Shown one piece after another: positions 51,932 through 54,615 of a stretch of DNA of 64,000 nt (position 1 is the first letter of the stretch; each line of letters begins with the position of its first letter). The notes under the pieces were generated by a model. That model worked only from the letters and a program-made list of their open reading frames with translations. It ran no database searches and had not been told where the DNA came from. This DNA comes from Arcobacter roscoffensis (GTDB lineage: Bacteria > Campylobacterota > Campylobacteria > Campylobacterales > Arcobacteraceae): the NCBI RefSeq assembly GCF_024267655.1, contig NZ_CP100595.1, positions 2,790,001 through 2,854,000 on the forward strand, given 5' to 3'. The position numbers were made by a program, and so were the translations under genes.

Positions 51932-51975
51932 AAGTATTAAGCAAAAGGCTTAAGCCTTTTTACTTAAATACTACT
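51932..51975 (-). terminator. Hairpin between flp and tadV (partial terminator/attenuator)
   Basis: AAAAGGCTTA/AGCCTTTT forms the centre of a longer imperfect stem with AAGTATT and AATACT arms. It starts at the flp stop. It could let pilin be made in excess over the machinery and stabilise the flp mRNA. Confidence 0.65.
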
Positions 51976-52165
51976 CAGAAGTAGAACCAGTTACTTCAGT
52001 AATTTTATTAGTTGCTGCTGTTTCAACTTTTGTTTTTTCACCATCTACCCAAGTATTTAGACCAACTACTGCTCCAACACCAACAATTACTAATAATAAA
52101 GTTACAAGAATTTTATCCATTGCACCTTTTTCACTTTTTAATCTTCTTTTTAAAAAATCTAACAT
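51971..52165 (-). CDS. flp: Flp-type (type IVb) pilin
   Basis: A 64-residue precursor. A basic leader MLDFLKRRLKSEKG is followed by AMDKILVTLLLVIVGVGAVV, a prepilin-like cleavage site after Gly14 and a hydrophobic helix, then a short polar C-terminus. The usual Glu-Tyr pair of Flp pilins is not present; Asp17 near the cleavage site is the nearest acidic residue, so it is divergent. Its place as first gene of the Tad operon, with AAGGAG before the ATG and a c-di-GMP riboswitch in its leader, supports it as the major pilin. Confidence 0.82.
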   Translation of the reverse strand: MLDFLKRRLKSEKGAMDKILVTLLLVIVGVGAVVGLNTWVDGEKTKVETAATNKITEVTGSTSE

Positions 52166-52247
52166 TTTGTTCTCCTTGCTTTGATAAGTATTAAAGTTAT
52201 TTTTAAAGGTAGTCAGTATTGCAATTTTTATTAAATAATAAATAAGA

Positions 52248-52325
52248 ATGCAACCCGGCTATCTCAATCAAGACCCGTGGCTTTCCGTCCTTACCTCACG
52301 ATAAGTTTGGCTATCACTAATATGT
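52248..52325 (-). ncRNA. Cyclic-di-GMP-I (GEMM) riboswitch in the flp leader
   Basis: The minus strand shows GEMM-I consensus blocks in order: GCCAAAC at about 52312-52306, GTGAGGTAAGGACGGAAAGC (52299-52280, the tetraloop/receptor arm), CCACGGGTCT to 52271, and AGCCGGGTTGC (52260-52250). The riboswitch ends about 85 bases before the flp ATG. GEMM riboswitches bind c-di-GMP and control motility, adhesion and pilus genes. I see no clear terminator in the expression platform, so whether it acts as an ON or OFF switch is open. Confidence 0.9.
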
Positions 52326-52539: not shown

Positions 52540-52830
52540 ATGACTGTAGATGATAAACTAATTGAGAAATTATCAAGACTTTCTAGTTTAGAGATTGATG
52601 AGTCAAGAAAAGAGAACTTAAAATCTGAACTAGCTGATATTATCAACTTCGTTGAAAATTTAAATGAGATTGATGTATCAAAAATTGAAGCTACATTTAG
52701 CACTGTTGAAGGTGGAACACCTTTAAGAGAAGATGAGGCTAAACAAGATTTAGAGTTATCAAATCATATTTTAAAAAATGCTCCTGAGTCAGAAGATGGA
52801 TACTTTAAAGTTCCAAAGATTATTGAGTAA
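52540..52830 (+). CDS. gatC: Asp/Glu-tRNA amidotransferase subunit C
   Basis: Small stabilising subunit of GatCAB, which converts Glu-tRNA-Gln and Asp-tRNA-Asn to the amidated forms. The 96 residues match the family: LIEKLSRLSSLEIDE at the N-terminus, ELADIINFVENLNEIDVS, then PLREDEAK and a C-terminal YFKVPKIIE. The RBS AAGGAA is well placed. The ArsC-like selenoprotein gene follows after 17 bases and may be co-transcribed. Confidence 0.95.
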   Translation: MTVDDKLIEKLSRLSSLEIDESRKENLKSELADIINFVENLNEIDVSKIEATFSTVEGGTPLREDEAKQDLELSNHILKNAPESEDGYFKVPKIIE

Positions 52831-52847
52831 TAAATAAAAGGAAAACA

Positions 52848-53189
52848 ATGTTTAAGGTTTACGGAATTAAAACCTGAAACTCTGTTAGAAAAGCCTTAAG
52901 GTTTTTTAAGGACAACAATATAGAAGTAGAATTCTTTGATACTAAAAAAGAAACACCTACTTCAACTTCTATCGAGTTTTGGATTGAAAAAGCGGGTATT
53001 GATTTAGTTTTCAATAGTAGAGGAACTAAATATAGAAGTTTAAAGTTAAAAGAGCTTAATCTTGACGAGCAAGGTAAGTTTGAGTGGTTATGTAAAGAGC
53101 CAATGCTTTTAAAAAGACCTATAGTTGAACTAAGCAATGATGTAGTTATTGGTTTCAATGAGGATGATTATAAAGCTAAATTTTTATAA
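52848..53189 (+). CDS. ArsC/Spx-family selenoprotein (UGA-encoded Sec at residue 10)
   Basis: From ATG 52848 (RBS AAAGGAAA) the frame reads MFKVYGIKT-UGA-NSVRKALRFF and then runs open to TAA 53187-53189, 113 residues. The family has Cys at exactly this point (YGIKNC-type N-terminus). The rest fits, e.g. FWIEKAGIDLVFNSRGTKYR and LLKRPIVELSNDVVIGFNED. The UGA (52875-52877) is followed after 16 bases by the hairpin CCTTAA-GGTTTT-TTAAGG (52894-52911). Its loop starts with GG, as in bacterial SECIS elements. The enzyme is probably a thiol/selenol oxidoreductase or arsenate reductase-like. An alternative is a pseudogene with a nonsense change, but the conserved position and hairpin argue against it. 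Confidence 0.85.
52894..52911 (+). promoter_or_regulatory. SECIS-like hairpin
   Basis: A 6-bp perfect stem CCTTAA/TTAAGG with loop GGTTTT. The loop begins 22 bases after the UGA, within the range of known bacterial SECIS elements. It would recruit SelB. Confidence 0.7.
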
Positions 53190-53191
53190 TA

Positions 53192-53228
53192 AAAAAAAGG
53201 GAAAGATTTAAAATCTTTCCCTTTTTTT
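53192..53228. terminator. Bidirectional terminator between selenoprotein gene and aroG
   Basis: A long perfect hairpin, AAAGGGAAAGATTT pairing with AAATCTTTCCCTTT, flanked by A and T tracts. It serves both converging genes. Confidence 0.9.
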
Positions 53229-53250: not shown

Positions 53251-54615
53251 TTAAACTATTATATCTTTTCTTGCTTCTTTTAAAGTATCAGCAATCATAA
53301 ATGCTAACTCTAAAGCTTGGTCAGCATTTAATCTTGGATCACATTGAGTATGGTATCTACTTGCTAATCCTTCTTTTGTAATAGCAGAACTTGCACTACC
53401 TGTACATTCAGTTACATCTTGTCCTGTCATTTCTAAGTGAATACCACCTGCATATGTTCCCTCTGCTCTATGAATTTGGAAGAATTTTCGCACTTCACTT
53501 AAAATAGCTTCAAAATCTCTTGTTTTGTAGCCATTATCAGTTTTGATAGTATTTCCATGCATTGGATCAGATGACCATAATACATTTTTCCCTTCTTTTT
53601 TAACTCTTGCTAATAATTTAGGGAAGTGATCTTCAATTTTATTTGCACCCATTCTAACAATAAGATTTAATCTTCCTGCTTCATTTTCTGGGTTTAATTT
53701 GTCAATTAATTGAATTAATTCATCTTCTCTCATAGAAGGTCCAACTTTACAAGCAATCGGGTTTTTTATACCTCTAAAATACTCAATATGAGCATCTTTT
53801 AAATCTCTTGTTCTATCCCCTATCCATAACATATGAGCAGCACAGTTAAACCAATCACCAGTGATTGAATCTTTTCTTGTAAGTGCTTCTTCATAGTTAA
53901 GTAAAAGTGCTTCATGTGAAGTAAACAGTGATGTTTCACTTAATTGAGCAGTATTTTCACTTGTGATACCACATGACTTCATAAAATTAAGTGCTTCTGA
54001 AATTCTATTTGATACATTTTGGTATCTTTCATCTAGTTCATGGTCTTTTAAGAAACCTAAATTCCATAATTGAACTTGATTTAAATCAGCCATACCACCT
54101 CTTGAAAATGCTCTTAAAAGGTTCATAGTTGCAGCACTTTGATTGTAAGCTTTTAATAATTTCTTAGCTTTTGGATTTCTAGCTTTTTCTGTAAAAGCCA
54201 TATCATTTACAATATCACCTCTATATGAAGGTAAAGAAATACCATTAATCTCTTCAAAGTCTGAACTTCTTGGTTTTGCAAACTGACCAGCAACTCTTCC
54301 AACTTTTACTACTGGACATCCACCAGAGAAAGTTAAAACTACTGCCATTTGCATCATAACTTTAAATAAATCTTTAATGTTATTTGCATCAAATGAAGCA
54401 AATGATTCAGCACAATCTCCCCCTTGTAAAAGAAAAGCCTTTCCATTTACAACATCTGCTAACTTACTTTTTAGACTTAGTGCTTCACCTGCAAAAATTA
54501 AAGGTGGATATGAAGCTAGTTCATTCTCTACTTTTTTTAATTTTTCTAAATCATTATATGTTGGTTGTTGTTTGATTGGAAAATCTCTCCAACTACTTGG
54601 ATTCCAAGTTTTCAT
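53251..54615 (-). CDS. aroG: DAHP synthase, class II
   Basis: First step of the shikimate pathway, joining phosphoenolpyruvate and erythrose 4-phosphate. The 454 residues belong to the plant-like class II type: [16 protein letters not shown] at the N-terminus, [20 protein letters not shown] (Cys metal ligand), [42 protein letters not shown] and [17 protein letters not shown]. All key motifs are present. Monocistronic, ending at a strong terminator. Confidence 0.95.

Follow-up and report, generated by a model that had tools for sequence, protein, structure and literature searches.

A predicted YffB-type selenoprotein of the ArsC superfamily that alternates with cysteine forms in Arcobacteraceae

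In this study, a forward-strand gene at positions 52848-53189 of the window (the whole 64,000-nucleotide stretch of DNA analysed, C1:2790001-2854000 of a genome assembled as one contig of 3.15 Mb) was investigated, and we observed that it almost certainly encodes a selenoprotein, judging from its sequence and those of its relatives. Our preferred reading, to which we give a probability of roughly 0.86, is that the gene specifies a YffB-type protein in which selenocysteine (Sec) would replace the lone catalytic cysteine by means of SelB and a hairpin past the UGA codon, and which would act in a glutaredoxin-like manner. According to this reading, the Sec form would be confined to Arcobacteraceae, where it would alternate with Cys forms, and relict SECIS hairpins would persist in the Poseidonibacter group.

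The frame comprises 113 residues (MFKVYGIKT-U-NSVRKAL...), harbors a single TGA, taken as selenocysteine at residue 10 (52875-52877), and terminates at the TAA of 53187-53189. A sequence-only reading had proposed that a UGA at codon 10 interrupts an otherwise open frame and stands for the redox Cys of the family; the frame is as described, and in the alignment the TGA coincides with the catalytic Cys of homologues, which is the catalytic position of the ArsC/YffB fold. Conservation on both sides of the UGA, as had likewise been claimed, was confirmed in the orthologues, and the dN/dS of 0.12-0.29 obtained 3' of the TGA indicates purifying selection on the frame. Since the sole start-like codon in frame past the TGA is the ATG of codon 86, the rest of the frame can hardly be translated on its own. 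Ordinary gene finders would cut such a gene short at its apparent stop, or overlook it. The neighbours, both identified by eye, are gatC (Asp/Glu-tRNA amidotransferase subunit C; 52540-52830, forward strand) upstream and a convergent class II DAHP synthase gene (53251-54615, reverse strand) downstream.

With regard to family membership, the protein passed the Pfam ArsC model (PF03960, 65.7 bits against a cut-off of 24) and the NCBIfam model TIGR01617 (arsC_related, 91.7 bits against 75). Scores below the cut-offs were obtained with the YffB equivalog NF008107 (PRK10853; 64.9 against 121 bits), the TIGR00014 arsenate reductase with its UxxS motif (41.7 against 106) and NF041106, ArsC_rel_Se_1, with its UxxC motif (28.6 against 85); the motif of the window protein is U-N-S-V, with neither UxxS nor a Cys at +3. 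The AlphaFold2 model of the 113-residue protein reached a mean pLDDT of 95, and in structure comparisons, Foldseek among them, the nearest match was the Pseudomonas YffB structure 1rw1 (TM 0.93, Z 18.9), with Spx and ArsC ranking lower. The YffB proteins of P. aeruginosa (PA3664, 1RW1) and Brucella (2KOK) share with it the fold, the length, the place of the redox residue, the G-X3-[C/U]-X3-[K/R] pattern (G6-X3-U10-X3-R14 in the window protein) and the KRP motif; they differ in having Cys where Sec is predicted here, and the score of the YffB equivalog model is likewise a point of difference.

During the orthologue search, 200 genomes were covered, with the window genome as the only member of its genus, and 156 gave a match; the named records among the orthologues belong to Poseidonibacter, Arcobacter, Aliarcobacter and Halarcobacter, of the family Arcobacteraceae. 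One TGA was found in the orthologue of 18 genomes including the window genome, all of them Arcobacteraceae and all with the TGA exactly at codon 10 (18/18), and every further orthologue read had TGT or TGC there. In a phylum-wide sample of 397 genomes, in-frame TGA was absent from the listed matches outside Arcobacteraceae. As far as searched, the Sec state is therefore limited to this family, alternating with Cys at one locus. Every Arcobacteraceae locus read, be it Sec or Cys, has a gatC homologue 6-165 nt upstream, and a convergent DAHP synthase homologue lies downstream in most of them, whichever form they carry; this common context indicates that the Sec and Cys genes are versions of one locus and not an inserted extra copy. 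Random stops in the gene of close relatives, which the sequence-only reading had named as evidence against its proposal, were absent among the listed matches, save for one TAA in a Cys form (G018), and TGA always stood at codon 10. That Cys orthologue (L054, G018:C2) ends at the TAA after residue 104, a possible C-terminal truncation; standing close to the C-terminal end of a Cys gene, the TAA was rejected as a counterpart of the codon-10 stop. One Sec genome, G099, shows 3% contamination and belongs to a genus that is otherwise Cys, so its contig may be misplaced. Two distant contig matches (L101 and L102), which by eye are a glutaredoxin-like and a thioredoxin-domain protein, were rejected as orthologues, and no relatives were found in the viral contigs searched.

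Downstream of the UGA, an apical hairpin of the bacterial SECIS kind (CCUUAA, loop GGUUUU, UUAAGG; 52894-52911, forward strand) was identified, whose stem begins exactly 16 nt past the UGA, the distance that had been given from the sequence, and whose loop G follows after 22 nt. A 6-bp G-loop hairpin is present at this place in 18/18 Sec forms and absent in 45 of the 46 ordinary Cys forms, and it resembles the epsilon-proteobacterial SECIS elements, which are hairpins of 5/6 bp with an invariant loop G (PMC4607533). Across the 18 aligned sequences (13 distinct, hence few, and related), 97% of cells pair and two pairs show compensatory change; the covariation score was higher than in any of 500 shuffles or any slid register, and a plain count of doubly changed pairs in these same sequences showed no excess over shuffles. 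In G082 the 5' arm is shifted by one base and the peptide is changed, with six pairs still formed. A possible lower stem of UGUU (52883-52886) with AACA (52914-52917), spanning 52883-52917 on the forward strand, is paired in 98% of cells and is nearly invariant, leaving little covariation to judge the pairing by. Taken by itself, the window hairpin was not significant by folding energy, nor by stem length under synonymous-codon randomisation, in which a 6-bp G-loop stem arose in 24% of sequences encoding the same peptide, because the peptide itself favours such a stem; when two G-C pairs were also required, the share fell to 0.4%. A stem from one genome is thus weak evidence, and the weight of the hairpin comes from its cross-genome conservation and covariation. 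A covarying, SECIS-like structure does follow the UGA, in line with the sequence-only reading. The window hairpin is built with the rare codons GCC and AGG, which account for 2% of the Ala and 3% of the Arg codons, respectively. Two other pairings, a pseudoknot of AAAACC with the loop GGUUUU and an upstream UUAAGG with CCUUAA, were dropped on inspection, being broken in several Sec forms.

Upstream, a further stem (AGGUUU/AAACCU; 52855-52875, forward strand) extends as far as the U of the UGA and is found mainly in Sec forms: with at least 6 bp and two G-C pairs, it was detected in 16/18 Sec forms, 3/7 Cys forms of the Poseidonibacter group and 0/46 other Cys forms, counts that ignore kinship. 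In G008, G014 and G051 it is re-formed in a shifted register (AGGAUUU/AAAUCCU), for which the chance under synonymous randomisation was about 5e-5 in the two of these genomes tested, and in G002 and G021 it reads CAAGUUU/AAACUUG. In the window this stem is the core of a 17-nt inverted repeat, 82% complementary, at 52844-52886, an interval that includes the start codon as well as the UGA. Whether bacterial recoding signals may reach 5' of the UGA is a question posed by this upstream stem.

The Sec machinery SelA, SelB, SelC and SelD, whose presence had been predicted from the window, was detected in full: selA at C1:1165958-1167277 (572 bits against a cut-off of 268), selB beside it at C1:1164117-1165931 (291 against 242), a divergent tRNA-Sec with anticodon tca (UCA) at C1:1167343-1167439, and selD at C1:1242174-1243094 (358 against 125). 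The selD gene of the window genome (L043) itself harbors one in-frame TGA near its start and is thus a selenoprotein gene. When the Arcobacteraceae genomes were limited to those of 90% completeness or more, SelB was found in 16/16 Sec genomes vs 49/65 Cys genomes (p=0.019), and with incomplete genomes kept the association was not significant (p=0.078); both values ignore kinship. The two Sec genomes with no SelB match are incomplete, G063 (86%, with selA fragments) and G016 (74%).

A probable trace of the passage between the two states was also observed in the Poseidonibacter group (genus g5), where 6/7 Cys orthologues carry a G-loop hairpin whose stem has 6 bp or more, compared with 1/46 Cys forms elsewhere. 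Five of these genes (L029, L030, L031, L035 and L036), with TGT or TGC at codon 10, retain an intact SECIS-like hairpin over codons 10-21 that includes the rare GCC and AGG codons. These hairpins are probably relict SECIS elements, and a recent reversion from Sec to Cys in the group is the simplest reading, although the protein tree, in which at least four changes between the Sec and Cys states are required, leaves their direction unsettled.

Several other explanations of the codon-10 UGA were weighed. A TGA is one base away from TGT and TGC, and hence a nonsense mutation, a pseudogene or a sequencing error in an ordinary Cys gene might be supposed; this is largely refuted and retains next to no probability, as the same TGA occurs in 18 independently assembled genomes, the frame past it is under purifying selection with no further random stops, and a covarying hairpin and the full Sec machinery accompany it. 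Selection on the frame implies full-length decoding but names no residue, which leaves room for a UGA that is suppressed or reassigned to another amino acid such as Trp or Cys. We consider this scarcely credible, since homologues have Cys and never Trp at the site, the tRNA with the tca anticodon is tRNA-Sec by structure, SelD has a UGA where SelD proteins usually hold Sec, and the layout of the hairpin is that of known bacterial SECIS elements (PMC4607533). The very early position of the UGA, with stems on either side of it in Sec forms, could further suggest that it serves mainly as a selenium-dependent switch, tuned by both stems, at which translation would stop after nine residues when selenium is lacking. 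Cys orthologues at the same locus require no switch, however, an early Sec is customary in thioredoxin-fold proteins, and because the next gene is convergent there is nothing further on the strand to control, making this reading very improbable.

The remaining alternative accepts Sec and differs as to its role: the protein might be an Spx-like transcription regulator that uses Sec as an oxidant sensor instead of a reductase. It draws on the title of the passed model TIGR01617 (Spx/MgsR family RNA polymerase-binding regulatory protein) and on the Spx structures, which rank close behind YffB (Z 17.0 vs 18.9) and have a similar ArsC-like fold. On the other hand, Spx/MgsR proteins have about 131 residues vs 113 here, the Spx models gave 26-33 bits against cut-offs of 123-159, the CxxC of Spx is replaced by U-N-S-V, single-Cys YffB proteins have been judged unlikely to behave as Spx (PMC3169414), and the neighbours are housekeeping genes; we therefore regard a regulator as unlikely. 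Accordingly, of the ArsC/Spx-like label first given to the gene, the ArsC superfamily part is upheld by TIGR01617 and the Spx-like part is not, given the missing CxxC and the YffB structure 1rw1 as nearest neighbour.

Returning to the YffB-type selenoprotein, we infer that it functions as a single-selenol, glutaredoxin-like oxidoreductase. By analogy with the known bacterial system, SelB and Sec-tRNA(UCA) would bind the hairpin past the UGA and Sec would be inserted at codon 10, giving a 113-residue protein of the ArsC/thioredoxin fold whose catalytic Cys is replaced by Sec. The selenolate, placed where helix 1 begins, would then probably attack an oxidised substrate, in the way of single-Cys YffB or monothiol glutaredoxins, and because a CxxC partner is absent, either a small thiol or a further redoxin may resolve the mixed selenide-sulfide. 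YffB proteins have been proposed as glutathione-dependent thiol reductases, and glutathione bound beside the GX3CX3K motif has been reported for two Cys homologues (PMC3169414). As to glutathione synthesis, the best GshB-like match in the genome falls below the model cut-off. At another locus the genome carries the gene of a canonical Cys arsenate reductase (L001, IWHNPRCSKSR), and this speaks against a window protein devoted chiefly to reducing arsenate.

Selenoproteins of the ArsC superfamily are as such already known (PMC2398784, PMC13188914). An ArsC-like selenoprotein was reported from Desulfotalea (PMC1794560), UxxS and UxxC types were found in ocean metagenomes (PMC2398784), and two ArsC-type entries appear both in a 2022 review (PMC9312934) and in one of May 2026, which names TIGR00014 (UxxS) and NF041106 (UxxC) (PMC13188914). 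Both of these families share with the window protein the superfamily and the Sec at the catalytic position, but the YffB-type protein, with its U-x-S-V motif, matches neither of them by score or by motif. A 2015 survey of epsilon-proteobacterial selenoproteins, from the same phylum, lists Fdh, SelD, SelW, thioredoxin, peroxidase-like and DUF466 proteins and leaves ArsC/YffB unmentioned (PMC4607533), and our literature search for selenocysteine in Spx or YffB proteins found no relevant report, though papers or annotations beyond its reach could report it. With this gene, the ArsC superfamily would gain a subfamily that contains Sec, and Arcobacteraceae a selenoprotein absent from the catalogues and family models examined. 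Because close relatives, part of them in culture, differ in having Sec or Cys at a single locus, and some keep probable relict SECIS hairpins, one can test directly what Sec offers over Cys to this enzyme and by which route reversion proceeds. A more far-reaching proposal, which we hold as tentative and at somewhat less than even odds, combines a third ArsC-superfamily selenoprotein type (YffB, U-x-S) with the two hairpins flanking the UGA as one extended recoding element and a Poseidonibacter clade undergoing Sec-to-Cys reversion with intact relict SECIS hairpins.

Other elements were noticed around the gene. Between the convergent genes, at 53199-53227, lies a GGGAAAGATTT/AAATCTTTCCC hairpin with runs of A and T, which by eye resembles a bidirectional terminator. 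On the reverse strand, a c-di-GMP-I-GGC riboswitch (RF03167, 59.7 bits against a gathering score of 59) was detected at 52245-52320, where it directly precedes a small pilin-like gene (51971-52165, reverse strand) and an apparent Tad/Flp pilus operon extending to 47334; it would link c-di-GMP to pilus expression.
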